Below, one piece after another: positions 15,477-51,156 of a stretch of DNA of 64,000 nt. Source of the stretch: Nelumbo lutea (Eukaryota; Streptophyta; Magnoliopsida; Proteales; Nelumbonaceae); the NCBI GenBank assembly GCA_022828595.1, contig JAKGHH010000005.1, positions 60,383,655 through 60,447,654 of the forward strand, read 5' to 3'. The notes beneath the pieces are model-generated. The model did not search any database, was not told the origin of the DNA, and was given only the letters and a program-made list of their open reading frames with translations. The position numbers and the translations under genes are program-made. The number at the start of each line of letters is the position of its first letter. Within the stretch, counting starts at the first letter, position 1.

Positions 15477-15862
15477 ATAGAGATAGTTAGTAGTGTGTGT
15501 GGTTCCAACCCCAACTGTTGAAGAGAGAGTTTTAGTAGTGTGTGTAGTTCCAACCCCATACTTATTTATTTTGTTTTTTATTTATTATTTCCTTTTATAG
15601 TTGGACCGGCTGGGCCTTGTTTATGTTTATCTTTTTTATTTTGTGTTGGAGTTTAAGTAGGGGTATTAGAGTAACTCCTACTATTGTAAGGAGATTAATG
15701 TTTATAAATAACAATTAAATGGGGCGGCAGGTATACACAACCGAATCCCTTCTTTCTTTATCTCTTTTCTTTTCTCTCTCTCTTCTTCTCTTCGAAGTTT
15801 GAACCTGTGTTTCTTTTCTTAAATTACATCAGTCCACAGCAGTGTTCTATTTGTTTTATTCA
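15477..15862 (+). repeat. Copia-B 5' LTR
   Basis: Similar to 24437-24779 from GATAGTTAGTAGTGTGTGTG onward, ending ATTCA before the primer site. It has an extra ~45 bases near 15705-15750 that the 3' LTR lacks. Its start is approximate because the terminal TG is changed. Confidence 0.75.
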
Positions 15863-16299
15863 AGTTGGTATCAGAGCTCGATCTAGGGCTTCTCATGTGA
15901 GTCTAACCCAGCCGACCGCATGAGAATTATCTAGGGCTGGAAGATTAGAAAGGAGCTATCTTTGCCTGATTCTTGGAGGTTACCAGAGATCTTTAGCAGT
16001 TGTCCGAAGATTGGAGAGTGTTTTTTTTGGTAATCAGGAAGAATCAGAGAAGGTTAGAGGAATCTAGATTGGATCTTTATCAAGATTGAAGGTGGCAATC
16101 AGAGTTTTCTGGGTAAGTTTTCATTTCTTCTTGAGCCAGCAGTAGTAAGAAATAAGTTAGATTTATTTAGAAGGTACGACTGGGAAAATCTGAGTTTTCT
16201 AGGGTTTGTTCTTAACCCTACGAATTATTTTTTGACTGTGAGCCTTTCTTGGAGGGATCATCTGGAAAAGATCTGATCTTGAACTTTTGACTGTGAATA

Positions 16300-16829
16300 T
16301 GTTATGGGCCCGGGAATAGGATCTCGTCACGGGTCGGTCCGCGGGGAAAACCTCCTGTTTTCCCTTGTCCCTTCTTGATGAACCTATCTTGGTGCCTTTG
16401 GTGATTTGTTCAAGAGATCACCAACTCTCTTAACTCACTTCTTTAACTGAATATTCGATATCTTTATTGACTGATAGCAGCTCCTTAAATAGGAGATTAC
16501 AAGAGTCCTAATCTTAGGGAGACTCCTTGCTGATTAGGGAGACTCCCAATTCTATCTTGCAAAGGATCAGATAAGCTAGTCCTAATCTGATGATCTACTA
16601 ATAAGATAAGATAAGCTAATCCTAATCTGATAGTCTACTAACAAGATAAGATAAGAGCATCAGAATAAGATAAGAACAAGCAAGATGACTAATCTAATCT
16701 AGATGAGACTGCTGTTGCCGAACTGGGTAGGATGAGAATCATTGGATCACTGCTGCTGCTGGCGGTGGGTCAGGTTCCTGTTGCTGCCGGCGGCGATGGT
16801 ACGTCTTCCCGAGGAATGCGTCCATAACA
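16300..16829 (-). repeat. TD1 3' LTR
   Basis: 530 bp, homologous to 19319-19828 over its full length. It contains repeated GATAAG words at about 16565-16680. It is a little longer than the other copy through an extra GATTAGGGAGACTC repeat near 16530. Confidence 0.85.
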
Positions 16830-17068
16830 TTACTCCCCTCCTGGACTACGAGCTTGTCCTTAAGCTCGAACTCTGGATATGTGGCGTGGAACTCTGCCAA
16901 TGGGAGTCATGTGGCTTTGGCCGATGGTAAATTACACCATTCTACCAAGACTTTAACAGCAGCACCAACAAAGAGCTTAGCTGACTGATGGGGAAGCTCA
17001 GTACCAGTATCATCAAGAAACAAGTTGCATAAGATGTTGTTCTTAGGTCCTTGAGAGCCATCAATCCC
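16830..17068 (-). pseudogene. TD1 chromovirus pol tail with chromodomain
   Basis: After WGPLFG the frame leaves cellulose synthase and reads [10 protein letters not shown], then [16 protein letters not shown] and LAEFHATYPEFELKDKL. The LVEW-NLP-ATW pattern is the chromodomain found at the C-terminus of chromovirus integrase. FELKDKL-VQEGSN runs across the purine tract into the LTR. TD2 keeps the last part of the same tail. This identifies the parent element as a Ty3 chromovirus. Confidence 0.72.
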
Positions 17069-18450
17069 AAATAGGGGGCCCCATGAGCCATAACCATTGT
17101 TAATGGCATCCGATATTCCAGCAACAACTCCAACCATGTTAAAGATAATCAGTGTTGTAGGAGGAATGAGAAGTGTAGTCCATTTGAAGAGGTACAGTTC
17201 ACCAAACTCTGTATCATCTGCAGCCTTTGAAGTTACAGTGAAGTTGGTGTCAACTCCTGCAAGAACTTTAAGAAGGCCTTGGAAGACGACAAAAAGATGA
17301 GCTGAGACACCTCCTATCACCCAGAATTGTTTATTGCACCACCAATCCTGAATGCTAACACCGCTCCATCGGAGCTCAAGCACACCGGTGGCTATGATGG
17401 ACAGGAAGAGGGCAATGAACCATATGCTAGCAAGATTATTCAGAGTGGGAATGGTGAACTTTCCAGTGAGAAGACAGACAGCAGGAATGATGCAATAGGC
17501 AAGCAAAGGAATGGAAGTTGAAGGGTAAACAATGGTGTTAGTATAGGTCAACCTCTCTAACCATTTTAGTTTTCCTCCATAGCCATACCATAGAGGGCAA
17601 TGCCGACTAAGGAATATCTCAACTGATCCAAGAGCCCACCTGAGAACTTGGTGCAGACGATCTGAAAGATTTATAGGAGCTGAACCTTTAAATGCAGCTA
17701 GTTTAGGAACACAATACACTGACTTCCATCCTCTGCAGTGCATCTTGAATCTGTCAATATGTCTTCTGTGATTAAGCATAAATCCATCCAAGCTCTTTTC
17801 CCCATTCAGTTTTCTCTTGATAGCCACAACTAATAACATGAATAGCCTCCTTAATGAGGGTTGTGTTGTTGGTACCCTCAGGAAGACCACCTTCTTCCAT
17901 AAGTGTTGAAGCATTGAAGACAGGTGACTGTCCAAACCTCTTCTCAAAGTTTTTCTGAGACATGAGAGATGATTTCTCTAGCTCATCGTATCCTTCAAGC
18001 CCTTCTTCAATCTCTTCAAGATCAAGGATAGGGGCAGAGCCTTTCTTGGAATAGTCCTTTGCCATCACTTTCGTCTTCTTGCTGTCAAACCCTCCAAACA
18101 AACTTCTTTCTCCCTTCTTTGATTTCAACTTTTTCCTTGATCCAGCATAACAACAGCAACACCAAGAAGGCCAGCAATCACAAGTCATCTTTGGTCTCTT
18201 TTCAGACACTGGTGGGTCATAGCCATACAATGCTTGCCTGTTCAAGACACAACCAGTTCCAACGTAGACTGGTCCTTGGATCCCATCCAAGCCTTTCTTG
18301 TTGATATCAAAGAACACTATATTGCGATTAGCGTATCTATCGTGGCGATCAATATCGTCGAACCTCTATGGAAACTGGAGATAACATAGCTTCTTTCCAA
18401 GCTGAGGATCCATCAGAAAGCACATGGCTTCCCTTACAGCCTTGCTTAAA
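17069..18450 (-). pseudogene. CESA: Captured cellulose synthase fragment
   Basis: Encodes the C-terminal half of a plasma-membrane cellulose synthase catalytic subunit. In order: [29 protein letters not shown], the [11 protein letters not shown] segment, the plant class-specific region, [11 protein letters not shown], the glycosyltransferase QVLRW box, several membrane helices, and YGSWGPLFG at the junction with pol. The TED-motif region (near 17750-17790) contains a frameshift, and a stop sits in QFP*RFD near 18378. There are no introns, whereas genomic CesA genes have many. The class-specific region is closest to a secondary-wall type such as CesA4, as far as I recall. Not functional. Confidence 0.88.
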
Positions 18451-18960
18451 TCACATAGAGTGGAGGTGGCAGTAATTCTGCTAAATTATGCTGCTTTAAT
18501 TTCTTTGTATGCAGAACCCCTAGTTGGTGCTGGACAAGCAAGGATGCTTTCTTCAGAGATTTCGGGAGACTTGAAAGGTACTTCTTTCGGCGTGCAATGG
18601 TCTCCATAAGGCTTTTCTTGTGTTGCTCTAGTTTCTCATGAAGTTTGCAGAGTTTTTTTCGCCGGAAAAGCTCAAAATTAAGCCGCCTTAGCATCAGGTC
18701 ATGTGCACTGTCTTTTGATAGTATAGATCCTTTAATATCTTGAGGGGCTGAACTGAAAAACTCTTCCTCAGGCACAAGTTCAATATCTGGATACTTTGAC
18801 TTGAAATCTTTGCGCACCTTTATGGCTTTCCCAAAATGAATTTTCTCATACATCACATTGTGAAGCTGCAATGTAGTGAAATCTACTGGTGCCTTAGCAC
18901 GTTCAGTTTATGCTTTAACACGATCCTCTTCTAGCAATATAGAACGATTTACCTTATCCC
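18451..18960 (-). pseudogene. THOC5: Captured THOC5 fragment
   Basis: Encodes a piece of THO complex subunit 5, which in the nucleus couples transcription to mRNA export. It reads on the minus strand from NRSILLEEDRVKA through FKSKYPDIELVPEEEFF, SAHDLMLRRLNFELF and [18 protein letters not shown] to PPPLYVI. There are no introns, although this stretch is normally split between exons (from knowledge of plant THOC5 genes), so the source was a spliced mRNA. A stop interrupts VKA*TERAKAP near 18908, and a few residues are deleted in SSLPKSLKKAS. Only the N-terminal third of the protein is present. Identified from recalled family sequence. Confidence 0.78.
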
Positions 18961-19295
18961 GGTCATCTGTTCGTTGATTCCGAAAAAACTGCTTGCAGCG
19001 ATACAGCCAGCCTAAGGGGTTTCCGTTTTCGTTGTACGACGGGAATTCCAGCCTGCTGTACTTCGGCTACCGGGGCGACGACCTGCTGTTCGTCGAACGA
19101 CTCCGCCAAGTCTGGTTGGTGGCTGTTTGTGGTTACAGCCCCTTCTGGATCCCTCTCCTGGTTAGAGAAATACGATTCCAGCAAGCGTCGCAGCTCCCGG
19201 ACATCGTCTTTGACCTCACGAACCTCCACGCGGGTTTCCACGAGCCTATGCTCCAGTTCGTGGACCTTGGATGATAGCTGCACCAGATCTCCCAT
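18961..19295 (-). pseudogene. TD1 gag-like leader ORF
   Basis: Starts MGDLVQLSSKVHELEHRL at 19295, right after the primer site, and forms a heptad-like charged helix (VREVKDDVRELRRLLESYF). TD2 has the same protein start at 38846 (MGDLEQLKTRVHELELKI). The shared peptide runs about 80 residues and then stops being similar, at the point where each element switches to its captured gene. Its place and shape fit the N-terminus of a chromovirus gag, but the capsid core and zinc knuckle are missing. Confidence 0.7.
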
Positions 19296-19303
19296 GACGG
19301 TAG

Positions 19304-19315
19304 GCTCTGATACCA
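19304..19315 (-). other. TD1 primer-binding site
   Basis: On the minus strand this is TGGTATCAGAGC, complementary to the 3' end of plant initiator tRNA-Met. It fixes the direction of the element. TD2 has the same 12 bases at 38824-38835. Confidence 0.85.
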
Positions 19316-19318
19316 TGT

Positions 19319-19828
19319 TGTTATGGGCCCGGGAACAGGATCTCGTCACGGGTCGGTCCACGATGAAAACCTCTTGTTTTCCCTTGTCCCTTCTTGATGA
19401 ACCTATCTTGGTGCCTTTGGTGATTTGTTCAAAAAATCACCAACTCTCCTAACTCACTTCTTTAACTGAATATTCGATATCTTTATTGACTGATAGCAGC
19501 TCCTTAAATAGGAGATTACAAGAGTCCTAATCTTAGGGAGACTCCTAGTTCTATCTTGCAAAGGATCAGATAAGCTAGTCCTAATCTGATAATCTACTAA
19601 TAAGATAAGATAAGCTAATCCTAATCTGATAATCTACTAACAAGATAAGATAAGAGCAATAGAATAAGATAAAAACAAGCAAGATGATTAATCTAATCTG
19701 GATGAGACTGCTGTTGCCGAACTGGGTAGGATGAGAATCATTGGATCACTGCTGCTGCTGGCGGTGGGTCAGGTTCCTGTTGCTGCCGGCGGCGATGGTA
19801 CGCCTTCCCGAGGAATGCGTCCATAACA
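19319..19828 (-). repeat. TD1 5' LTR
   Basis: 510 bp. On the minus strand it starts TGTTATGGACGCATTCC and ends GGGCCCATAACA, three bases before the primer site. It shares blocks with the TD2 LTRs, including CTCGTCACNGGTCGGTCC and the TTCCCTTGT region. Confidence 0.85.
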
Positions 19829-20103
19829 GATTATTGGACTGAATACAGTCCATGTTTGTCTACCAGGGAGTTAATCCTTGACTGTGTTTGCATTCTTGGA
19901 AAGGGTCTATCGGCTGATTACAGTCCAGATCTGTCTACCAGGAAGTTGACCTTTTTCTGACTGTGTTTGCACTGTTGGAAAGGATCTATTGGCTGAGATT
20001 AAATTCTGGGTTGTCTTCTCTATTTTTTAGTGTTGCAGAAAAAGAATTTATCCTTTTAGGTATTCTTCTTGGAAGTTTTTAGCTTATTAGTGCTCTCTTA
20101 AGA

Positions 20104-23100
20104 ATGGAGAAGTTTGGAAGTGAGTTAAAAACACAAGGGGAAGGATTTTTTGGGACTGGTAACATGACTGGAAATTCTTTTCAAATTACCACTGTTAGAT
20201 TTGATGGAACCAATTACTTGGAGTGGGCCCAATCAACAATGATGGCTATTGGAGGTAGAGGTAAATTAGGCCATGTGACTGGAGATACAAAGAAGCCAGC
20301 AAAGGAAGATACTTTACATGCAAAATGGGTTCAAGAGAATTACTTAGTAATGACTTAGCTATGTAATTCCATGCAGCCCCACATCAGCCGCAACTATCTT
20401 TGGGCAAAAACAACCAAGGAGATTTGGGACAGTATGAAGGAAACTTATTCCCAACCACTCAATGTTGCTAGGGATTATGAGCTGAAGTGTGAAGTGAATA
20501 ACCTCAAGCAAGGGGAGAAGCTAGTCTCAGTGTATTTTGCTACTCTGAAATCTCTTTGGCATGAAATTGATCACTTAGAAACTATTGAATGGAAAAGCCA
20601 GAGGGATGTAGCAACATTCAGAAAACTGATTGAAACAAATAGAGTTTTTGAGTTATTAGCCAGTCTAAACTCAGAGTTAGACATTATAAGACAACAACTT
20701 CTCACTAGGGAGAGTGTGACTTTATCTCAGGCCTACTCATTAGTCCACAATGAAGAGAGTAGGAGGAAGGTTATGCTATCTTTTCAGCCCATAGAAGCAG
20801 CCTTGACAGCAACAAAATCTAAGGTTGGAGGGGGAAAGGAAAGGGAAATTAGGAAGGAACACAAGAGAGATTTTTTGTGATTATTTCAAAAAGCCCAAAC
20901 ACACTTGGGATACCTATTGGAAATTGCATCCTCACCTAATGCTAGCTAGACTTAGAAACAAGAAGGGGAGTGCCAATATAGCAACTACTACTGACAGTAC
21001 ATCTTCTTCCAGCACAAGGACCACATCCTTGGATGCTTTAGTAGCTGTCTGGGCTACACAACACAACTAGAGAATGAAGCTGGTATTTTTGGATCTACAT
21101 CTCATTTTTCAGTCACCACTCCTACTCATCCTACTTCAGCCCTTGCTCATACAGGTACAAGAGCTATTGCATGTCATGCTTCTGTCCTAGGTAACACTAG
21201 GCCTTTCTAGGTAATAGATTCAGATGCTTCAGACCATATGACCAGCCTATCTACTTTGTTTACCACCTATTGTTTATCCTCTAGGAGAGACAAAGTTTCT
21301 ATTGTTGATGGCTCCCTTGTGCCAATTTCTGGCAAGGGAGACATCAGATTGTCTGATGCCATCTCCCTATCCTCAATTTTGCATGTTCCTAAGCTCAGTG
21401 CTAACTTACTTTCAGTTAGTAGTATTACTAAAAATCAAAATTGCTCAGTAACCTTTTTTCCTGATCAATGTGTTTTTCAAGATCTGAAAACGAAGAAGGT
21501 GATTGGGATTGGCTGTGAGATGAATGGAGTTTACTTGCTTGAACATCCAAAGGGGAAGCAGAGTGAAGTGGGAAAATTGTTTGTCTCTCAGTCTTGGAGT
21601 AAGATTATGCTTTGGCATAATCAATTAGGTCATTTGTGTTTTGGGTCTTTGAAGAGTCTTTTTCCAAATTTATTTGAGTCAGTCGAAGTGTCTAGTTTGA
21701 AGTGTGAAAGTTGTGAACTTGCAAAACACAGTATATCATCTTATCCTTTGAGTAACAAAAGAAGCAACCTTCCTTTTGAAATTGTGCATACCGATGCTTG
21801 GGGGCCATATCATACTCCCACTATGGGGTGGGGGGGGGTACAGATATTTCTTGTTATTTGTTGATGATTATACCCGCTTCTCATGGGTTTACCTTATGCA
21901 TTCTCGAGATGAGGTCCCTTTTCTGACCCAGGCTTTCCATCATATGGTTCTAACCCAGTTTGAAACGAAGATCAAAATTCTTAGATCCGATAATGCCAAG
22001 GAATATTTTGCAAAACCCTTGGCATCCTATCTCCTTGATCATGCGGTCATTCATCAGAGCACTTGTCCTCGTACACCTCAACAAAATGGGGTTGTTGAGA
22101 GAAAGAATAGACATATATTAGAGGTAGTAGAAGCATCATGCTCAACTCCAATGTTCCCATACGTTTATGGGGGGATGCATTCCGTACAGCCGTTTACCTT
22201 ATTAACATGGTTCCTTCATAGGTTCTAAACTTGCAAACACCATTCAACCTTATGTATCCAAATAAGGACCTGTTCACTATTCCTCTCAAAATTTTTGGGT
22301 GTATTTGTTTTGTTCAAATCCTTGGACCTCATCGTTCCAAGTTTGATCCCAAAGCTACTAAGTGTATTTTCCTTGGGTATGCACAAAATCAAAAAGGATA
22401 TTGTTGTTATGAGCCTGTTTTAGGGAAACGTTTTGTGTCCATGGATGTCACCTTTTTTGAGGATATGCCCTACTATTATAGGGCTTCTCCTCAGGGGGAG
22501 AATGGTGAGGAAGGGATTTCAATTTCAGCCCCAAAAGTTCCTTTACCTGTCCCAGTTACTGAGAGGGAGTGTCGTGAAGAGGGTTGTCAAAAGTGCAGGG
22601 AGTTGAGGGTATATCACAGAAAGTGGTGGAGGCATGTTGATTCCTGTCCTCAGTAGCAATCCGGGTCAATCCCAACATCTTCTATGGCCCCAGATCCAGA
22701 CACTACCACTGCTCCTACTGTTGAGCCCACTATTACTGATGCTCAGCCTCCACCGTCAGATGACCTTGATCTTCCAATTGCAATTCGTAAAGGGAAGCGT
22801 CGTTGCACCTCATCCACTGCCCATTGTATCTCCAAGTTCCTTTCCTATGATTTTTTCTTAGAGTCCTATAGATCTTACCTGGCATCTATTGTTACTATTC
22901 CTATACCCAGAAAAGTGCAAGAAGCTCTTTTGATACCTGAGTGGAAGGAGATAATGAAAGCAGAATGCCCTTGTTAAGAGCACATGAGAACTAGTTAACC
23001 AGCTTGAAGGGAAGAAACCTGTTAGATGCAAATGGGTGTTTATTGTAAAATATAATGTTGATGGTACTATAGAGAGGTATAAGGCCAGATTGGTTGCAAA

Positions 23101-24430
23101 AGGATTCACACAAACTTATGGCATAGACTATGTGGAAACCTTTGCACCTGTTGCAAAAATGAACACTATTAGAGTCCTACTATCCATTGCTGCAAACTTC
23201 TCATGGCCACTATTTCAGCTAGATGTTAAGAATGCTTTCCTCAATAGAAACTTGCAAGAAGAGGTATACATAGAGTTACCCCTTGGATTTTATAGTAAAA
23301 AAGCAAGAAAGAAAGTTTGCTTACTAAAGAAGGCTTTATATGGCCTGAAACATTCGTCGAGAGCTTGGTTTGATAGGTTTAGACTGGCTTTGGACAAATT
23401 TGGCTACATACAGGCTCAATTAGATCACACTCTCTTCTTTAAGAAGACATGTCTTTCCCTGACACTACTTGTAGTCTATGTAGATGACATTGTGATATCA
23501 GGGAGTGATATTAGTGAGATTGAATCTCTTAAACAACATCTTCACAAGGAATTTGAAGTGTAGGACTTAGGGGAATTGCACTATTTCTTGGGAATTGATG
23601 TAGCTTGATCTAAGCATGGCATTTTTATCTCTCAGAGGAAATATGTTCTTGACTTATTGGAGGAAACTAGAAAGTTGGGAGTGAAGCAAGCTGACACACC
23701 TATTGAGCTTAACCATAAAATAAGTGTAGAAAGTGGAGTACCTCTTGAGGGCAGGGCTATGTACCAAAGGATGGTTGGGAAACTTCTTTATCTTTGCCTA
23801 ATTCGGCCAGATATTTCATATGCTGTTAGTGTTAGCCAATACATGCATTTTCCTAGGACCACTCACCTCCTTGTAGTGGAAAGGATTCTTGACTACTTGA
23901 AGAGATGCCTAGGGAGAGGTATACTCTTCAAGAATAATGGTCACATGAAGATAGAATTGTATACGGATGCGGATTAGGCTGGTTGTGTTGATGACAGGAG
24001 GTCTACCTCTGGATATTGTGCATTTGTGGGGGCAAATCTTGTTTCCTAGAGAAGCAAGAAACAAATTGTTGTTGCTCACTCTAGTGCAGAAGCTAAATAC
24101 GGATCCATGGCCAATGGTGTTGCAGAAGTGTTATGGCTGAGATCCTTGCTTAATGAGCTAGAAATTGATTATGAGAAGCCTCTGATGCTGTATTGCGATA
24201 ATCAAGTTGCAATTAATATTGCCCACAACCCAATACAGCATGACAGGACAAAGCATATCGAGGTGGACAAACATTTTATCTGAGAGCGAGTTGCATCTCA
24301 AAAAGTATGTCTTCCTTACATTGCCTTAGACATGCAATTAGCTGATCTCCTTACCAAAGCAGTCACAAAGAGCAAGCTGGAGACAAATTTATGCAAGTTG
24401 GGAATGACAAACATCTACTCCCAACTTGAG
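20104..24430 (+). pseudogene. Copia-B gag-pol remnant
   Basis: Starts MEKFGSELKTQGEG at 20104. UBN2-type gag runs to about 20870 with an in-frame TAG at 20356. The knuckle that follows is altered (CDYFKKPKHTWDTYW lacks the usual second and last Cys). The protease motif reads DSDAS instead of DSGAS near 21217. The integrase zinc part and HTDAWGP lie near 21610-21810, with a frameshift at a G run near 21830. Reverse transcriptase (23036-23563) keeps YVDD. RNase H follows to 24430 with several stops. Inactive. Confidence 0.85.
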
Positions 24431-24436
24431 GGGGAG

Positions 24437-24779
24437 TGTAAAGATAGTTAGTAGTGTGTGTGGTTCCAATCCCACACTGTTGAAGAGATAGTTTTAGTAG
24501 TGTGTGTGGTTCCAACCCCACACTTATTTATTATGTTTTTTATTTATAATTTCCTTTCACTGTTGGGCCGGCTGGGCCTTGTTTATGTCTATCTTTTTTA
24601 TTTTGTGTTGGAGTTTAAGTAGGGGTATTAGAGTAACTCCTACTATTGTAAGGAAATTAATGTTTATCTCTCTTCTCCTTCCTTTCTCTCTTTTCTTTTC
24701 TCTCTCTCTTCTTCTCTTTGAACCTGTGTTTCTTCTTAAATTACATCAGTTCACAGCAGTATTCTATTTGTTTTATTCA
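24437..24779 (+). repeat. Copia-B 3' LTR
   Basis: Starts TGTAAAGATAGTTAG right after the purine tract and ends TTTTATTCA. It repeats GTTTTAGTAGTGTGTG twice within its first 100 bases. Confidence 0.8.
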
Positions 24780-25425
24780 AGTACAACCTTGCTGTAAACA
24801 CTCTCCTAACAAACTTCTAACATTACTGTTTCATAAACTCAATTACTAACTCATAACACTCAGAATTTATTCTAGCTCGCAGCTAGAATCTTCTCAATTA
24901 TTGTGCAAAATAAGAACCAAAGCCTTTGAATTGTTGAGCGCTTATCTTTCTTCAATAAGTCTTGAAGTTTGCTGTATGATCCCTATCAATATTATTATGG
25001 CTTACTAATATTTGATACTTATTCTAGTATGATGTTTCTGTTTGAGAAAAATAGTAAGGGCGATGGGTAGAATTCTTCCTTGTCCGTTTTGTTCGTGTTG
25101 CTTGCCATTCTTTCCTTTTTATTCTTAACTTCTCTCAAAAAAAAAGACCAATTATTTATTTTAATTTCTGATGTGGAATTGTGAGGATGCATTGTAGGAA
25201 ATTGACCTTGCCACTTTGTGGGCTGAGGAGACTCTGATTGAAGATAGTTTGGTCTTGGACATTCTTTTCCTCGCTTATTACGAGTCATTTTGTGCTTGTA
25301 ATGGTGAACAATGGAAGAATTTGTGTTTGCTTTACAAGGTACTATCTTGATTTTTTATTTTTTATTAGATGCTGGATCCTGTGCAGTTTTCCATCTGAAT
25401 CCTTGCGTATGGTGCCTAATTTCAG
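24780..25425 (+). other. End of the 12.4-kb NUP188 intron
   Basis: Non-coding AT-rich sequence between Copia-B and the next exon. I see no transposon end or RNA gene. Confidence 0.5.
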
Positions 25426-28854: not shown

Positions 28855-29178
28855 TGTTAGGAACCTGCCTAACTCGGGGCTCTTCGAGAGAGAGAGAGAG
28901 AGTTTAATGCTGAAAGAGTCCTCCCTTATTCCTTTTTTGGCTCTACTACTTATAGTGTTACAATCTTGACTGTTACAGCTGTTACAAGTGGATGGCAGTT
29001 GTGACAAGTGGCTGCTGATGTGGCCTATTCTTGTAACTGACTAACTGTCTTCTGTTGGTCTGTTCCAACAGTCTTGACAGTCCAAGTGGATGGCGGTTAT
29101 TACAAACTGCTGGTTAGTGGCCTCCTCTTGTAAAACTGACTAACTGCCTTCTGTTGTTCTGTTCCAACAGTCTTGACA
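28855..29178 (-). repeat. Ty3 element 3' LTR
   Basis: On the + strand it starts TGTTAGGAACCTGCC and ends TCTTGACA. It lacks the ~30 bases present near 30795-30825 in the other LTR and has a shorter GA run. Confidence 0.85.
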
Positions 29179-29181
29179 ATC

Positions 29182-30676
29182 TTCCCTTCCTTTAGAGTGA
29201 CCTTGCCCTCAAGGTCTAATGTAGGAAAATTTGATTGCAGATCTAAGTAGGAAAATTTGAGTCCATGTGCATGAATATGGGCTGATCTAGGTCTCCTCTT
29301 TGCTTTGTCAGTGTTGCAAGACTGATGGGCCTTGGGCCTTTGCATGTCTGCCCTTGTAGATGGACTGTAGAGTTTCCTGATGTGAAGTCCATGGTGAGAC
29401 GGGCCCAGTCACAGACCACGGGTCCTAGCTGCCTTAACCATTGAATGCCTAGCACCACGTCTGCTCCACTGAGATGGAGAGGATATAGGTCCACCGCAAA
29501 CTGATGACCCTGAATCTTTAGTGGTAGGCCCATGCAAATGCTATTGCAAGATAGGCTTTTACCATTGGCCACATGAACCGTAAAGGTCGTTGTTGGTTGC
29601 ACCGGAAGTCCCATTTTATCCACCAAGACTTGAGTTATGAAGTTAAGGGAGCTGCCACTATCTATGAGGATTGACACTTGGCGCCCTAGAATCAGCCCTG
29701 CAACTCTCATTGTTTGAGGGGACGCAAGTCCCGTAAGGGTTTGTAAGGATATTTCAGGCATGCCATTGGATTGTATTTCCTAACTTGGGTTAGATTCTCC
29801 ACAATCGGGGATGTCGTCTTCCTCTTCGACATCTGTTTGGAGGAGAAATGCTTGTTGTTTCTTTCAGTGATGGCCCGACCCAAATTTCTCTTCACAGTTG
29901 TAACAAAGACCTTTGTCTCTGCGGGCTTGCATCTCTGCCCAAGCCAGCCGTTTGAAAGGAACCAGTGGGCCTGGGCTAAGAACTCCTTCCTCCTTGTCTG
30001 GTGCTGTTGTCCTCTCTTGCTCCCTTCTTGCTTCTGGACCCCATGGTCGCTGCACCTTTCTTGCTTGACTGAACTTGTCCTCATACTATCTTGCTAGTGC
30101 TGCCGCATTGATGACCGAAGTGGGCTGCATCACTTTCACTTCCAGTTGCAGTTCTTCTTTTAGGCCGCCTACAAAGCTTCCCACTAATGCCTTCTCCGTC
30201 CATCCTTGGACTCTCACAGCCAACCTTTCGAACTCCATCTGGTATTCTTTTATTGATCCCACTTGCCACAGTTTTGCCAAGTTTTCATCAAGATCTTCGA
30301 ACCTTGATGATCCAAAACGGACAGTTATGGCGTCCGTGAAGTCTGCCCAGGTTTGATGGGGGTGCCCCGTTCGGTACCATTGAAACCAGAGGATAGCTTC
30401 CCCTTCAAGATGCATAGAAGCCAGAGCTACCCTATCCTGTCCCGGTGTTTCATGTTTATCGAAATACCTTTCTGCTCTGAGAATCCAGGGGGTTGGGTCG
30501 CCGCCTGAGAATATGGGGAAGTCGATTTTGGCTATTTGTGTTGTCGCCCCTATTCTGTGACTGTTTTCATTGCTGCGCTCTTCGGGGCTACCTCTGTCAA
30601 TGCTTGTTGCCCCCTACTTCAGTCGATGGAGGAGAGCAGTGAAGCTTTCCTTCATTTCTTTGAGATCTGAAGACAT
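29182..30676 (-). pseudogene. Ty3 gag-protease with pol tail
   Basis: Reads right to left. MSSDLKEMKESFTALLHRL starts at 30676. The Ty3-type capsid region has AILWFQWYRTGHPHQTWADF near 30400. A knuckle-like CYNCEEKFGSGHH near 29880 has lost its last Cys. The aspartic protease near 29700-29400 has catalytic ILIDSGSSLNF and VVLGIQWL. It then passes to FPTLDLEGKVTLKEGKIV near 29240-29182, which matches the last residues of a chromovirus-like pol. The whole polymerase and integrase block is missing. Stops and frameshifts are present. Confidence 0.78.
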
Positions 30677-30820: not shown

Positions 30821-30855
<35 letters not shown>

Positions 30856-31148
30856 AATGCTGAAAGAGTCCTCCCTTATTCATTTTTTGGCTCTACTACT
30901 TATAGTTTTACAATCTTGACTGTTACAGCTGTTACAAGTGGATGACAGTTGTGACAAGTGGCTGCTGATGTGGCCTCTTCCTATAACTAACTAACTGCCT
31001 TCTGTTGGTCTGTTCCAACAATCTTGACAGTCCAATTGGGTGGTAGTTGTTACAAGTGGACGGCGGTTATTACAAGTGGCTGGTTAGTGGCCTCCTCTTG
31101 TAAAACTGACTAACTGCCTTCTGTTGGTCTATTCCAACAATCTTGACA
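30759..31148 (-). repeat. Ty3 element 5' LTR
   Basis: Homologous to 28855-29178. It carries a longer GA microsatellite (about 30823-30853) and an extra piece of sequence near 31035-31075. It abuts the primer site at 30744-30755. Confidence 0.85.
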
Positions 31149-34100
31149 AGAGCAATCCAGTAGGGGTGTGGTATGGAATGAGGTTTCATAAGAAGCTCTA
31201 GTATCTGAAAGGGAGAATCAAGGAATGGAATCTACTAGAATTTGGGAGATTGGAGGAAAGGAAATAGCATGCGATCACACAAATTGCGGACCTGGACAAT
31301 AAAGAAGGGAGGGAAGGCCTAACTGAAGAGGACAAGGAACATAGGTGGAGTTTAAGGAAATAGTTAGAAGATTATATGCTTAAGGAGGAAATAAGTTGGA
31401 GGCAGAAGTCAAGATGCAAGTGGTTAATAGAGGGGGATAGGAACGCTAAATTCTTTCATGCCTTGGCTTGTGGTAGGAGGAAGAATTCTATTACTAGATT
31501 GGAAATTGAAGGGAACAACATCACAAGACAGAGAAAAATAGCGGGAGCATTTGCAGATCATTTTAGGAGCATATATATAGAAGGCCACTGAATAATAGGG
31601 TATGGTGGAGGGCTTGGATTGGCCAACACTGAAGAGAGAAGAGAAGGATTGGTTGGAGAAGAAATTTGAGTTGGAAGAAATAAAAGAGGCAGTATTTTCG
31701 ATGGATAGATCAAAGGCACCGAGCCTAGATGGTTTTACGATGGCTTTCTATCAGGGTTGCTGGGAGATCTTAAAGGACATATTGTTGGTATTTGATGAAT
31801 TCCATACCAGAGGAGTGATTAACCCAGGGCTAAACTCCACATTCATTGCTTTAGTTCCCAAGTGAGGCAAGGCCACCCAAAGGACTACAAGCCGATCAGT
31901 CTAGTTAACAGCCTTCATAAGATCATCACGAAGGTGCTGTCAATTAGAATCGGAAAGGTGCTACCATCTATCATCTCGAACAATCAAGGAGCTTTTGTGA
32001 GGGGGAGAAAAATAACATATCAGATATTGGTAGAAAATGAGAGTTTAGAGGATTACAAGAGATCCGGGAGAAGAGGAGTGGTCTGCAAACTAGATCTAGG
32101 AAAGGCTTATGATATGGTTGATTGGTCCTTTCTATTGGAGGTGATGATGAATTTTGGGTTTGGAGATATCTAGTGCAATTGGGTGATGGGATGCATTAAG
32201 GATTGTCACTATTCTATCTTGGTGAACAGGACCGTGGTGGACTATTTTCTAGCTTTGAGGGGGATCAGACAAGGAGATCCTCTATCCTCCTTTTTGTTCA
32301 CATTGGTAGCTGAAGTGCTAGGGGGTTTGATATCTAAAGCAGACTCCAGGGAGCTTATAAGAGGGTGGAGAGTTGGAAGGGATAATGTACCATTTACACA
32401 TCTACAATTTGTAGATGATACGATTCTGTTTTGCAAAGGTGGGGATGTCAATTGGATTAAAAATTTGAAACTCTCTATACAACTCTTTGAACAGATGTCA
32501 AATATTAGGGTGAATTTTGAAAAAAAAAGTTGTATAGTTGGAGTCAATATGGGGGAAGGGGAGATGGGGGAGTTTGTAGATATTTTGGGATGTGCAGTGT
32601 CTAATTAGCCATTAAACTACCTGGGCTTACCTTTGGGAGATAATCCTCAAAGAGATGATTTTTGGGCCCATGTTTTGGAGAGATTTGAAAAGAGGCTGGC
32701 CAACTGGAAAAGAAATTATTTGTCCCTTGGAGGGAGAATCATCCTAATTAGGTCTACGTTGGCTAACCTTCCTGTATATTTTCTGTCTGTTTTTAGGATA
32801 CTGACGAAGGTGGCTAATAGGTTGGAAAAGCTAATGAGGGATTTTTTGTGGGAGCTGGGGGAGGAGAAGAGGGACCATAGGGTCAAATGGGAGGTGGTTT
32901 GTAGAGCTAAAGAGGGAGGGTTGGGTATTGGTAATATTAGGACTAGGAACCTTGCACTACTAGGAAAATGGTTATGGAGATTCTCACTGGAGAAAGATAG
33001 GTTGTGGGTTAAGGTGGTGGGAAGTATACATGGATTGGCAGATAATGGTTGGGATTTAGGAGTTCTAGCAAGGGCCACAAGAGATTCCCCTTGGAGAGCC
33101 ATTCAAGCCATCTTGCCTTTATTCTCTCCATGGATCAGGTATGACTTGCATTCTGGTACCCTTATAAATTCTGGGAACAGGTCTGGGTTGGGGACTTCTC
33201 TCTGAAAGATCAATTTCCATGCCTTTTTGCTTTGTCCTCCCTCAAGAATGAATCAATTTCTTCCTTTATTGCTCCTTCTAATTCACCCTCTGGGTTTAGT
33301 TGGAACCTAAGCTTGAGAAGAGGTGTTAGGGACACAGAGATTGCCTGTACCATAGCCTTACTTTCCATCTAAAGCAGATAGCAGAATCTGGACACTCACT
33401 CCCACGGGCTCTTATACTTGTGCCTCCTTTTTCAAAGAACTATTACCCTCTCATCTCGCTGTCTTTTCTTTTCATGTTAAAGAAATGTGTTGTCGACCTA
33501 TATCTCCCAAGGTTGGGAGTTTTTGTTGGGAAGCCTTTCTCGGGAAGAGTTAATACAAGGGGTCTACTCCAAAGGAAAAGACTCGACAGCTGTTTCTCTC
33601 CTCATTGGTGTGTTCTCTATAAGTTTGATGGTGAGTCTGGATATCACTTGCTAATTTCTTGTCGGTTTGTTAAAGCTATTTGGGTATGGTTTACTTATTT
33701 GTTTGGATGCAGGTGGACCCCCCCTTTGAATGTTCAAAGCTTGTTTTCTTCCATGCCTAATTGGCCAACTAAAAGGGCTAAAATCATGTGGAGGCGTGGT
33801 AGAGCTGCAGTATGTTGGACAGTGTGGGAGGAGAGGAACTCAAGGATCTTCTCAAGTAAAGAGAGAGGTATGGAAGAATTTATAGAGAGAATTCACATTA
33901 GAATGACACAATGGTTGAGAACACTGGAGCTGTTCAAAGTGTTTTCATTTGTTGAGTTGATAAGGAATTGGAAGGAGATTGCAGATTCATGCCTATGTAG
34001 AAAGTTATCAAAAGCTTGTTGGAGTCCTCCACCTATTGGATTCACCAAACTGAATTTTGATGGTAGCAACATAGGCAACCCAAGGCCTTCTGGAATTGGA

Positions 34101-34565: not shown

Positions 34566-37500
34566 TCTGGTCTCTAGAGCTTTGCCTAGGGTCACATCAG
34601 ACCATTGTCCCATCAAGATCAGTGTGGAATCCCTAATTAGTGGACCTAAACCATTTAGGTTTGAGAATATGTGGTTAACGAGAAGTTAAGGGGAATAAAG
34701 TGGAAATGAATCAAATTTCATCAAAAGTTGAAGAGACTGATAGTCAAATTGAAGGAGTGGAATAAAGATCACTTTGGTAGAGGAACAAAAGTTGAGCCTA
34801 TTCACACAAATTGAAAAAAATGGATGAGAGGGAAGCCCAAGGGTTGCTGAGTGAGCAGGATAGAGAATCAGGAAGGCAATTGGAGGACCTAGAAGAGGTT
34901 TTACTCAGAGAAGAGATTTGTTGGAGGCGGAAGTCAAGGCATAAGTGGATTAAGGAGGGGATGGGAATGCTAGGTTCTTTCATGAGTTGGCAAATGGTAG
35001 AAGGAGGAAGAACTTAGTGGCTAGATTAGAGCTAGAAGGGTAGGTAATTACCAATCAAGAGGACTTTGAATGAGAGGGTGCCTTTGGAAGGATTGGAATA
35101 GCTGAGATTAGATGGAGAAAAAGCAAGGTGGTTAGAAAGGAATATTGAAGAAGAGGAGATCAGAAGGGCAGTGTTTATGATGGATAGATCTAAGGTGCCA
35201 GGTCCCGATGGATTTACTATGGCTTTCTACCAAGATTGTTGGGACATTTTGAAAGAGGATTTATGTGATGCTGTTTAGGAATTTATAGAGATTCATATAG
35301 TAAGTCCGGGAGTCAATGCCACTTTTTTGGCCTTAGTCCCTAAGAAATCAGATGCTATCCAACCTAAGGATTTCAGGCCAATTAGTTTGGTAACTAGTAT
35401 TTATAAAATCTTGGCTAAGGTGTTGTTTTGGAGGCTTAAAGCAGTTTTTCCATCCCTAATAAGCCACGCCCAAGGATCCTTTGTACAAAGGAGACAAATA
35501 GCAGATCAGATCCTAATTGCTAATGAGTGCGTGGAGGATATGAGAAGATCTAAAAGAAAAGGCTTTGTTTGTAAGTTGGATCTAGAAAAGGCCTATGATT
35601 TGGTGGACTGGCATTTTTTTGGTACAAGTATTGTGAAATTGTGGATTTAGGAATAAATGGTGTAGTTGGATTTTTGGATGTATTAGTTCCTGCCATTACT
35701 TTGTCTTGGTTAATGGAGTGGTGGAGGACTTCTTCCCAGCCTGTAGAGGTATCAGGCAAGGGGACCCTCTATCACCTTTCCTCTTCATTCTAATAGCAGA
35801 GGTGCTTAGTAGTATGATCTCAAAGGCTGATAGAGAAGATGTGATTAAAGGGTGGAGAATAGGTAGGGATGGTATTGCGGTCACCCATCTCCAATTTGCA
35901 GATGATATTTTGATTTTCTGTGACGGGGATGATATTGAGAAAGTGAGAAATCTCAAGGATCTGGTTATAAGTTTTGAGAGATTGTCAAATTTGAGTGTCA
36001 ACTTTGAAAAGAGTTGTGTAGCTGGTGTTAACTTGGAGGATTGGGAGGTGGAGTTTATAGCAAGAAGCTTAGGATGTTCTATGTCGTCCTGGCCTATGAC
36101 CTACTTGGGGCTTCCGCTAGGGGCAAACCCTAGGGAGGAGAGTAGCTTTTGGTGTCCAGTGGTAGAGAGGTTCCAAAAGAAGTTAACACCGTGGAGTAAA
36201 AACTACTTATCCTGGGGGGGTAGAATCATGTTGATAAGAGCCACACTTGCTAACTTACCAACCTATTTCCTGTTTGTGTTTAGGATACCACCTAGGGAAG
36301 CTAAGAAGCTAGAGAAGTTGAGAGATTTTCTTTGGGAGCCGGGGGACAGTAAGAAGGATCACTTGATAAAATGGGAGGTGGTATGCCAGAATAAAGAGGA
36401 AGGGGGATTAGGGTTAGGGAATTTGATTAAAAAAAATAAAGCATTGTTGGGGAAGTGGCTGTGGAGGTGGCCAGTGGAGAGAGAGAGACTTTGGCATGAG
36501 GTGGTGAGTGGTATTCATGGTCGCTCAAAAAATGGATGGGATGCTAGAAGTATCATGGCGGGCAACCTTGGCAACACCTTGGAAAGCTATTGATGGCATT
36601 CTTCCTCAGTTTCTTAGTTTTGTTAGGTATGATGTTTGCAATGGTAACTCAGTCCTATTTTGGGAGGATACTTGGGTTGGAGAGGCTCCATTGAAGGACC
36701 TTTTCCCTTCTTTGTTCTTTGTTTCAAGGTATAAAAAGCATTTTGTGTCAAAGTTTTTTTCCATTATGAATGATCCATTAACACCAAATTGGGACTTTGG
36801 GTTTCGTAGAGGTTTAAGGGAAGAGGAAATTGTCTCTCACAAATCTACTAAGCCTACTTGATACAGTATGTTTGGACCCTTCTGAACCTGATAATCGAAT
36901 TTGGACACCCCAGCGGAATGGATCCTTTTCATGCGCTTTTTTCTTTAAATTCATTACTCAGTCTATCTCTACTCCCAACCAGCCTTTCCCTTTTAAGGAA
37001 ATTTGGTGCAAGCCTGTCCCCCCTAAGGTTATGGCTTTTTGTTGGGAAGTGTATTATGGAAAAATAAACACCTTTGACATTCTACAAAAGAGAAGACCTT
37101 TTCTCTGTCTCTCACCTTCTTGGTGTATTCTTTGCAGGTCACATGGTGAGGACTGTAACCATTTACCAACATCTTGTTCATTTATTGCAGAGTTATGGGA
37201 GTGGCTCTTCTCATTGTTCTCTGCAAGTTTGATTTTTGATCCTGCTTTCTTCCCTTGGCGTCACATAAGAGGAAGAATTATGTGGAGGTGTGCAAGAGCA
37301 ACGCTGATCTGGTCCGTGTGGGAAGAAAGGAATACCAGAATTTTCCAAGAGAAAGAGAGAAGCCCAAAAGAGATGAAGGACTGCATTCTAAATAGGGTGA
37401 TTTTGTGGCTAAAATCACTGGACCTATTCCATCAATTCTCATTTAATGATATTTGGAGGAATTGGTTAGCAGAGGCTAATTGTTCATCTATAAAGACTAA

Positions 37501-38368: not shown

Positions 38369-38820
38369 TGATGTGGACGTGTTTATTGGGAAGAAGTATA
38401 GCCGCCGGCAACAACAGTAATTGGGTGTTCTCAGTTCTCATCTTATCTAATTCCAGCTAGATACAGTTCTATCTTATCTATTCAGCATTCTTATCTTATC
38501 TGTTTTCAGTAGTAGGATTAGTAGGGAGTCGTATCTATTCAGTGTTCTTATCTTATCTATTCAGTAGTATAGATTAGTAGGGAGTCTTCCTAAAAGCAGG
38601 ACTCTTATCTCTTGTAACCCTCAATTTAAGGAGCTGATAATATTCAATAAAGGCATGAAAATTCTCAGTCAAGACAGTAGAGGAGAGTTGGTGACCTCTT
38701 GAACAAATCACCATTAAGGCGCCAAGATAGGTTCCTCATGAAAAGGGAGGAACAAGGGAAAACAGGAGGTTTTCCCCGTGGACCGACCGGTGACGAGATC
38801 CTATTCGTGGGCCCATAACA
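38369..38820 (+). repeat. TD2 5' LTR
   Basis: Starts TGATGTGGACGTG and ends GGGCCCATAACA. It has two copies of a unit with CTTATCTTATCTG and GTAGTA, fewer than the 3' LTR. Confidence 0.87.
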
Positions 38821-38845
38821 ATTTGGTATCAGAGCAAGGCGATTC

Positions 38846-39085
38846 ATGGGTGACCTTGAGCAGTTGAAGACTAGGGTTCATGAACTGGAGCTCAAGATCG
38901 TGGAAAAAAGCACGGAGGTGCGCGAGATCAAGGACGACGTCCGAGAATTAAGGTGCTTGATGGAGTTGTACTTTTCCAGCAAGGAAAGGAACTTGGAAGG
39001 GGCTGCAACCACAACCGACTGCCGACTAGACATGGCAGAATCGTCTGGCGAGCAGCAGGTCATTGCCCTAGTGCAGGTTAGCAAC
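38846..39085 (+). pseudogene. TD2 gag-like leader ORF
   Basis: Starts MGDLEQLKTRVHELELKI ten bases after the primer site and continues EVREIKDDVRELRCLMELYF, then EGAATTTDCRLDMAESSGEQ. It is about 60 percent similar by eye to the TD1 leader, and the two stop aligning where TPR sequence begins. The predicted form is a coiled coil. Its role in an intact parent would be the gag N-terminus. Confidence 0.7.
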
Positions 39086-40345
39086 ACCCAGAATGTTCCG
39101 AGGATTCCATCGACGAGATTTCAAAGAAGAATAAGAGCAACTACTCCAAGGTCGCCATTGCTGACCTCAACGTCGACCCTCCCGAAAGCGATGACGATGA
39201 CTGTGCCTTCATCGCTCCTTCTGATTCCACCAGGAGCATTAAGGAAGAAAATTGTGGGGAGAAAAGTACCTCAGTATGTAAAGACGCTATGGTTGATGCC
39301 ACAGAAGGAGAAGCTAAATGGTTAAATAAACTGGGGAAGTGTCGTTCAAGAATTAACAAGGGCAAATGTTCTCTTGAATGTGGGCCTGATACGGATGCCA
39401 ATCAACACTATCAAGGGGCTCCAGCATCCCGTGAGGAAAAAGTCAGCAACCTTAAAACTGGTTTGGTTCATGTTGCAAGGAAGATGCCCAAAAATGCCCA
39501 TGCACATTTTATACTTGGCCTAATGTACCAGAGGTTGGGTCAGCCATAGAAGGCAGTGCCAACATATGAAAAGGCAGCAGAAATATTACTTCGGAGTGAG
39601 GAAGAGACTGACAGGTTGGGTCAGAAATATTACTTCGGCCCTAATCAATTACGCATTTCTTCTTTTGTGTAAATATGGTTCAGTTGTTGCAGGTGCGGGG
39701 GCAAGTGCTGGTGAAGGAGCTTGTATGCCTCATGTTGCGGTTGCAAATGTTGCGAAAGAGTGTTTGTTAGCTACAGTCAGATCAAATCGTAGGGCTGCAC
39801 ATATCTAGGTGAATCTTGCTAATGCATACTATTTGGCTGGTGATCATAAAGTGCTGGAAATTGCCTGGAGAAGGCAGCAAAACTGGAGCCTAATTGCATG
39901 TCAACTCGATATGCTGTTGCGCTTCATCGTATCAAGGATGCAGAAAGGTCTCAAGATCCCACTGAACAACTTTCATGGGCTGCGAGTGAAATGGCTTCAA
40001 TACTCAGAGAAGGGGACTCTGCAACAATTGAGCTTCGGATAGCATGGGCAGGACTTGCCATGGTTCGCAAGGCTCATCATGAAATTGCAGCAACGTTTGA
40101 AACTGGACATATTGATTTGACGGAAGTGGAAGAGCGAGCTCTGTACACACTAAAGCAGGCAATAGAAAAGGATCCAGATGATGCAGTTCAGTGGAACCAG
40201 CTTGGCCTTCACAATCTTTGTACTCTACGGTTCAAGACATCTCAGAAGTACCTTAAGGCTGCAGTTGCCCGCGGCAAAGAATGCAGCTACGCATGGTCAA
40301 ATCTTGGTATCTCACTGCAGCTGTCTAAGAATGAACCCTCTTCAT
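39086..40345 (+). pseudogene. Captured TPR-protein fragment
   Basis: An intron-free piece of a plant tetratricopeptide-repeat protein. In pieces of different frame it reads VAIADLNVDPPESDDDDCAF, AKWLNKLGKCRSRINKGKCS, LVHVARKMPKNAHAHFILGL (a TPR helix), then INYAFLLLCKYGSVVAG, VNLANAYYLAGDHK, ERSQDPTEQLSWAASEMASI, and ERALYTLKQAIEKDPDDAVQ to GKECSYAWSNLGISLQ. Frameshifts or stops occur near 39180, 39547, 39640, 39806 and 39870. It resembles the plant TPR proteins often labelled SPINDLY-like, but I cannot name the gene. Lack of introns points to an mRNA source. Confidence 0.75.
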
Positions 40346-40464
40346 TGGAACCCGATCTAGGTGGCAAAATCATTCCACCTATCCTGGATTCCTTTGACTG
40401 AGTTTCAAGACACATATCCTGATTTTGAGCTTGAGGGCAAGCTCTTAGTCCAGGAGGGGAGTAA
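40346..40464 (+). pseudogene. TD2 chromovirus pol tail
   Basis: Reads LSWIPLTEFQDTYPDFELEG and KLLVQEGSN, the same C-terminal pol residues as TD1 (LAEFHATYPEFELKDKL, VQEGSN). The frame continues into the LTR as VDAFIGKKYSRRQQQ before a stop. Less of the chromodomain is kept than in TD1, so the capture junctions of the two elements differ. Confidence 0.72.
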
Positions 40465-40981
40465 TGATGTGGACGCGTTTATTGGGAAGAAGTATAGCCG
40501 CCAACAGCAGCAGTAATTGGGTGTTCTCAGTTCTCATCTTATCTAATTCCAGCTAGATACAGTTCTATCTTATCTATTCAACATTCTTATCTTATCTGTT
40601 TTCAGTAGTAGGATTAGTAGGGAGTCTTATCTATTCAGTGTTTCTTATCTTATCTTATCTGTTTCCAGTAGTAGGATTAGTAGGGAGTCTTATCTATTCA
40701 GTGTTCTTATCTTATCTGTTCAGTAGTATAGATTAGTGGGGAGTCTTCCCAAAAGCAGGACTCTTATCTCTTGTAATCCCCTATTTAAGGAGCTGATAAT
40801 ATTCAATAAAGGCATGAAAATTCTCAGTCAAGACAGAGTAGAGAGGAGTTGGTGATCTCTTGAACAAATCACCATTAAGGCGCCAAGATAGGTTCCTCAA
40901 GAAAAGGGAGGAACAAGGGAAAACAGGAGGTTTTCCCCGTGGACCGACCGGTGACGAGATCCTATTCGCGGGCCCATAACA
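40465..40981 (+). repeat. TD2 3' LTR
   Basis: Matches 38369-38820 but is longer because a ~65-bp unit (TTATCTTATCTG...GTAGGATTAGTAGGGAGTC, about 40585-40745) is present three times. The units are rich in GATA/TATC words. Confidence 0.87.
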
Positions 40982-50045: not shown

Positions 50046-50240
50046 GTATTCTGCTTTTGATATTTCATCCTGACCTGCTTTGTCAATCGGTGTTCCTCCT
50101 TAATGTTGTTGCTTACCTAATTATTTAAAATTTGGGTCTACCTATGAGGTTGTGATGAATGGCTGTGGACAGAAACTTGGGGAGGCTGTGAGCTGTGGGT
50201 GTTAGCATGATTATCACATTCTGACATGGCTATGTGGTTC

Positions 50241-50880
50241 TATAAACAGCAGGTCCTCAAAATCTATGAGACTACGAGTGTTGACTTCATGCTTGTACAT
50301 CATGGCCACACTGTAGTACAACAAATGTAGTTGGCCACACTTCATAGCTGCTTAATCATGCACATTTTTTTTTGGTAGAAAAAGACGAATAAGATTCCAA
50401 ACTAAATCATGGGGTCCAAATAGAGTACAGAGGACATATTGAACACACCCCACTCTAGACATACAACACTATGCTCTCCAGAAAATACTACCACTCACCA
50501 TGCATATATGATGTACATTATAAAGTAGATAAAGTAGTACTATCCATTTCACCAACATTATATAAACTGCAGGTCCTCAAAATCTATGAGACTACGAGTG
50601 TTGACTTCATGCTTGTACATCATGGCCACACTGTAGTACAACAAATGTAGTTGGCCACACTTCATAGCTGCTTAATCATGCACATTTTTTTTTGGTAGAA
50701 AAAGACGAATAAGATTCCAAACTAAATCATGGGGTCCAAATAGAGTACAGAGGACATATTGAACACACCCCACTCTAGACATACAACACTATGCTCTCCA
50801 GAAAATACTACCACTCACCATGCATATATGATGTACATTATAAAGTAGATAAAGTAGTACTATCCATTTCACCAACATTA
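50241..50880 (+). repeat. 320-bp near-perfect tandem duplication
   Basis: Copies 50241-50560 and 50561-50880 differ by one base that I can see (TATAAACAGC against TATAAACTGC). TAT occurs at all three boundaries, so the duplication could have arisen at that microhomology. It is non-coding and inside the intron after exon 10. It is either very recent or an assembly artefact. Confidence 0.9.
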
Positions 50881-51156
50881 TATCTGGCAAGTGTTTCATG
50901 GTAATATGCTTCTAGCACACCAGAAATTTATAGGAACTGCAGGCAATGAGAATGACATTCTTATTGGATTTCCGGAGAGTAAAAGTGGAAAGAGGTTCTC
51001 AAATTTATTGGCTGCGTCAATAGTAGAGAGGAGGGATCATCACATATGAGACATCTAGTTGGAAAAGCCAAAGCTCTTGCATCTGGATTGAATATTTACT
51101 TGTAAAAAACAAAAAACCTGGAGTGAATATCCTCATTCACATGAATAAGGAGATTG
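50881..51156 (+). other. Intron sequence left of Copia-D
   Basis: Non-coding. Nothing recognised. Confidence 0.5.

Follow-up and report, generated by a model that had tools for sequence, protein, structure and literature searches.

The locus at 16300-19828 of the lotus window (by which we mean the whole 64-kb stretch of Nelumbo lutea DNA that was analysed) raises the question of how sequences from two host genes, THOC5 and CesA, came to lie within a single LTR retrotransposon. We show that this is a non-autonomous element of 3,529 bp on the minus strand, and we consider it highly probable that it is a Ty3-type element into which nested THOC5 and CesA4 cDNAs were brought by template switching, and that the chimera was then copied again and inserted. 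Its parts, listed in element sense, are the following:

19319-19828, minus strand: 5' LTR, 510 nt, TGTTATGG...CCATAACA
19304-19315, minus strand: primer binding site TGGTATCAGAGC, 3 bases inside the 5' LTR, read directly
18956-19295, minus strand: truncated, frameshifted gag start (ORFs 18963-19436 and 18908-19066)
18449-18955, minus strand: THOC5 cDNA segment 1, about residues 79-249 of Liquidambar THOC5 (P0001), one in-frame stop
17775-18446, minus strand: CesA4-type cDNA, first half, residues 528-752 of Telopea CesA4 (P0281), one in-frame stop
17066-17749, minus strand: CesA4-type cDNA, second half, P0281 residues 762-989, frame shifted relative to the first half
16955-17068, minus strand: THOC5 cDNA segment 2, P0001 residues 372-409
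16833-16954, minus strand: putative Ty3-type pol 3' end, 41 residues, ending in the purine tract
16833-16842, minus strand: purine tract AGGAGGGGAG, 3 bases before the 3' LTR
16300-16829, minus strand: 3' LTR, 530 nt

The original prediction had placed an LTR element at these coordinates, and both the limits and the presence of LTRs, primer binding site and purine tract were borne out, with the element on the minus strand. The LTRs are direct repeats with TG...CA ends, identical at 493 of 510 aligned sites and differing by one 20-nt indel (K2P 0.034). Plant substitution rates lie at about 7e-9 to 1.3e-8 per site per year, and at such rates this divergence would correspond to an age of roughly 1.3-2.5 million years. 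The primer binding site is one that we take, from its match to the tRNA, to be of the initiator tRNA-Met type. The flanking pentanucleotides, GAATA and GATTA, match at four of the five positions of a putative target duplication. The whole unit is inserted in an older Copia element, a short way inward of its 5' LTR (15478-15865), and the reverse transcriptase region of that Copia element has a PF07727 (RVT_2) match at 23000-23563. This host element and a second LTR element, related to the first, complete the set of features on which our argument draws:

15478-24782: host Copia element, LTRs 15478-15865 and 24439-24782, 82.5% identical
38369-40981, plus strand: second related LTR element, LTRs 38369-38820 and 40465-40981, perfect 5-bp duplication GAGTA

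In the internal frames scanned, only the THOC5 and CesA families rose above the Pfam cut-offs, and no protease, reverse transcriptase, RNase H or integrase was found; the element at 16300-19828 has none of these proteins of its own and is therefore non-autonomous. The gag fragment has no Pfam family match and the 41-residue pol tail has none at E 10, so for both the naming relies on motifs and on resemblance to the second element. The gag start is identical to that of the second element at 201 of 296 aligned sites, in a slice that includes the primer binding site and some cargo, and the pol tail to its internal end at 75 of 104 sites, in slices that include cargo. From its motif, the pol tail is presumably of Ty3 type; the narrower chromovirus label in the original prediction found no support in these matches.

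Searches against plant proteins retrieved the THOC5 and CesA families, as had been anticipated. The claim that sense-strand pieces of both genes are present found support from Pfam, PDB and database matches, but it had overlooked a second THOC5 segment and the nesting that this reveals, since the internal order in element sense is gag, THOC5 part 1, CesA, THOC5 part 2 and pol tail. Both THOC5 segments were found by tblastn with all five plant THOC5 proteins used. Segment 1 is 75-78% identical to these five (in alignments that overrun the junction slightly) and 82% identical to the best match of the protein database search; it matches PF09766 with E 6.5e-50 for 18446-18907, or 1.4e-53 when read through to 19066 with stops as X, and compared with THOC5 proteins it has one in-frame stop and is three codons short. 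Segment 2 is 69-77% identical to the same five proteins, with E values of 2.5e-12 to 1.0e-14. Pfam and PDB searches with this short stretch came back empty, and it was considered as a third host gene and as an intron remnant; we rejected the former because THOC5 proteins align to it, and the latter because it is THOC5 coding sequence. The two segments are collinear, one on each side of CesA, and about 122 residues of P0001 are absent between them, with CesA in their place.

The CesA cargo corresponds overall to residues 528-989 of the 1056 in P0281 and has neither of its own gene ends. Its first half is 85.4% identical to P0281 and 95.9% to the Nelumbo protein P0241, and its second half 91.7% to P0281 and, over a stretch that includes the THOC5 junction, 95.2% to P0241. 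Both halves match PF03552 (E 4.7e-66 for 18446-17775 and 3.4e-124 for 17749-17066), and the best PDB match of the second half is the CesA structure 6wlb (E 5e-127). The CesA cargo carries one stop and a net -2 frameshift. Given these lesions and those in THOC5 part 1, the cargo is a pseudogene in this copy. Thus, the fused THOC5-CesA cDNA that had been proposed stands in that both genes are present, but stops and a frameshift mean that it is not an open fusion.

The cargo had also been described as intron-free, and indeed none of the four cargo segments, together about 660 codons, contains an insertion of intron size when compared with spliced proteins, or anything beyond a few codons. This uninterrupted colinearity indirectly supports the view that the cargo derives from spliced cDNA. 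In Cannabis, 14 exons are usual for a CESA gene, although one single-exon CESA is also reported there (PMC11636989), and introns would accordingly be expected within a CesA stretch of 460 codons. The consulted text of a common-bean CesA study gave no exon numbers, and no exon count for THOC5 was found in the titles and abstract openings of the literature. These data bear on the possibility that the genes were captured as DNA, by a Helitron, a Pack-MULE or ectopic recombination, and lost their introns later. Captures by DNA transposons are known in plants (PMC13317346), but the absence of any intron remnant from the cargo codons, together with the presence of LTRs, primer binding site and purine tract with the cargo between them, makes an origin of this kind extremely improbable.

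The second element carries the cDNA of a TPR protein (AT5G63200-like, a name taken from P0189) that is 90% identical to the Nelumbo protein P0121. Its LTRs are identical at 433 of 451 aligned sites, with one 63-nt indel and a K2P of 0.041 (measured on slices 1-2 bases off the limits), and the TGGTATCAGAGC motif adjoins its 5' LTR as well. Between the two elements, LTR distances are far larger (K2P 0.35-0.51 in four comparisons), which indicates related but separate families. Moreover, the gag and pol breakpoints of the second element are not those of the element at 16300-19828, and the two captures therefore look independent. P0121 starts with the gag start of the second element and has the 3' junction in common with it (QNHSTYPGFL, 10 of 10 residues), while P0125, also from Nelumbo, ends in its pol tail; on these shared ends we identify both proteins as further copies of the TPR-cargo element type.

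Other repeats surround these elements. A Ty3-type gag (PF03732) and protease (PF08284) at 29243-30613 on the minus strand belong to another element, and this region is flanked by a direct repeat at 28886-29179 and 30836-31149 (314 columns, 88.5%). LINE-type reverse transcriptase frames lie at 35637-36593 (PF00078) and, by resemblance only, at 32174-33205. A tandem duplication of 326 bp (99.4%) is found at 50238-50883 amid older repeats. ARAGORN found no tRNA genes in the window, and no Rfam family reached its gathering score there.

Could the two cDNAs instead be processed pseudogenes, made by LINE enzymes, that entered an LTR element in succession? The window does contain a LINE-type reverse transcriptase domain (PF00078 at 35637-36590), and template jumps by LINE enzymes are reported to have produced a tripartite chimera in a fungus (PMC2104539). 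However, poly(A) is absent at all four cargo junctions, both cDNAs lie in element sense, and gag and pol have been replaced rather than interrupted. In addition, another member of the lineage is built in the same way around a different gene. Collectively, these features render successive LINE insertions very unlikely. By contrast, a CesA stretch inside THOC5, followed by a collinear return to THOC5, is the expected trace of template switching by a reverse transcriptase, and this return to the first template would be the main support for that mechanism. The junctions themselves are less uniform: at the boundary from CesA to THOC5, the letters TGGGA can be assigned to either gene, judging from codon possibilities rather than parental DNA, and this overlap may fit template switching, while no clear microhomology was seen at the boundary from THOC5 to CesA.

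P0241, a Nelumbo nucifera database protein of 474 residues annotated across the junction of CesA and THOC5, passes from the one to the other at the same place as the element at 16300-19828, with 95-96% identity in CesA and without the frameshift. The original prediction had expected other copies with the same junctions; one of the four cargo junctions is visible in P0241, and the other three are not. Since the frameshift is absent from P0241 and 4-5% of residues differ, we take this protein as another copy and not the same locus, so that a second copy of the CesA-THOC5 chimera very probably exists, although P0241 could, much less probably, be an allele of the same locus from another cultivar. 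Its annotation as a protein spanning the junction would also suit a fusion gene of the host that an element took up whole. In such a case, however, CesA would hardly be expected in place of the middle of THOC5 and without both of its own ends, and no fusion gene was found by name among the best 120 of 406 THOC5 matches or the best 120 of 2988 CesA matches. We therefore regard uptake of a ready-made fusion gene as scarcely credible.

Phylogenetic trees were built from these best matches. For THOC5, 120 of 120 passed the coverage filters; for CesA, 112 of 120 passed and 8 were dropped. In the CesA tree (113 sequences), the element and P0241 form a pair with support of 0.999. The pair shares a stem of 0.093, about three times as long as the element's own tip (0.031). 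This would mean that divergence of the captured CesA was already under way when the two copies split, although part of this stem may be the history of the lotus gene itself. The pair falls outside the Proteaceae CesA4 group, as the sister of 77 other sequences (support 0.826). In terms of distance, the nearest sequences to the element's CesA after P0241, among the matches listed, are the CesA4 proteins of Telopea and Macadamia; Nelumbo and Telopea both belong to the Proteales. In the THOC5 tree (121 sequences), the element groups with four Proteaceae proteins (support 0.69), and its tip of 0.149 is the longest of the 121. None of the best 120 of 406 THOC5 matches is named as a Nelumbo protein. 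These relationships, and chiefly the element copies among Nelumbo proteins, point to lotus as the source of the window. An attempt to order the two captures by divergence failed, as the THOC5 tip (0.149) and the CesA path (0.031 + 0.093 = 0.124) are similar and the trees consequently give no order.

On this evidence, the claim that two host mRNAs were transduced into one LTR unit is supported: the cargo is in element sense and colinear, lies between primer binding site and purine tract inside near-identical LTRs, has no poly(A) at its four junctions, and shares its CesA-THOC5 junction with P0241. Under the template-switching origin that we favour, a Ty3-type ancestor would have been stripped of most of gag and pol and would have acquired sequence from spliced THOC5 mRNA when a reverse transcriptase, supplied in trans by an autonomous relative, changed template within a virus-like particle. 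During that round or a later one, the enzyme would have left the THOC5 RNA, copied some 460 codons from a CesA4 mRNA packaged alongside it, and then come back to THOC5 at a point about 122 codons closer to the 5' end of the mRNA, leaving CesA inside THOC5. A final switch would have led from THOC5 to the element RNA, the whole path being covered in one or more rounds. Because LTRs, primer site and purine tract were kept, the chimera would have remained competent for further rounds of copying, and the copy seen here would then have inserted into the leader of the older Copia element. We infer the supply of proteins in trans, the template switching and the order of events alike.

The nested structure is of interest in itself, as it lets template switching between co-packaged RNAs be read. 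Copies of this kind are also a possible source of annotation errors, as P0121 and P0125 are element copies that have been entered as lotus proteins, and P0241 very probably is another. Furthermore, the presence of two related elements with different cargo within 64 kb suggests that capture is frequent in this lineage. It is tempting to speculate, although we consider it rather doubtful, that a capture-prone lotus lineage repeatedly acquires host mRNA sequence in the interval from gag start to pol tail, can nest a second gene in a first and multiplies the resulting chimeras, and that the parental genes may be affected by products such as the P0241 frame or by small RNAs made from the cargo.

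No title on this lotus element was found among those listed for the open-licence literature. Gene transduction by plant LTR elements has nevertheless been established since maize Bs1, an LTR retroelement with segments of three host genes (proton ATPase, xylan endohydrolase and beta-1,3-glucanase), none of them full-length (PMC13317346). The proposed parallel with retroviral transduction is therefore supported as to the transduction, but the novelty that it implied was overstated. In pepper and other plants, spliced mRNAs are found in LTR elements, about 72% of retroduplicated NLRs lie in non-autonomous ones, and genes inside LTR elements number from 1,398 in rice to 3,898 in potato across six species (PMC5664825); another survey counts 672 LTR-captured genes in rice and 1,343 in sorghum (PMC3726574). 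Captured genes in plant LTR elements usually lie in element sense (PMC7264820). The lotus element resembles Bs1 in holding host gene fragments within an LTR unit, here intron-free and in element sense, and differs from it in host and genes and in having a related element with a different gene within the same 64 kb; a further feature of the lotus element is that one cDNA lies inside another. Whereas the pepper work emphasises NLR genes, the cargo here is a two-gene chimera, and the text of the rice and sorghum survey available to us presents no such nested case (PMC3726574). Complex LTR elements attributed to template switching in Triticeae join two retrotransposon sequences, in contrast to the host mRNAs found here. 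What is new in lotus is thus this member, its nested two-gene structure and the related family with other cargo nearby.
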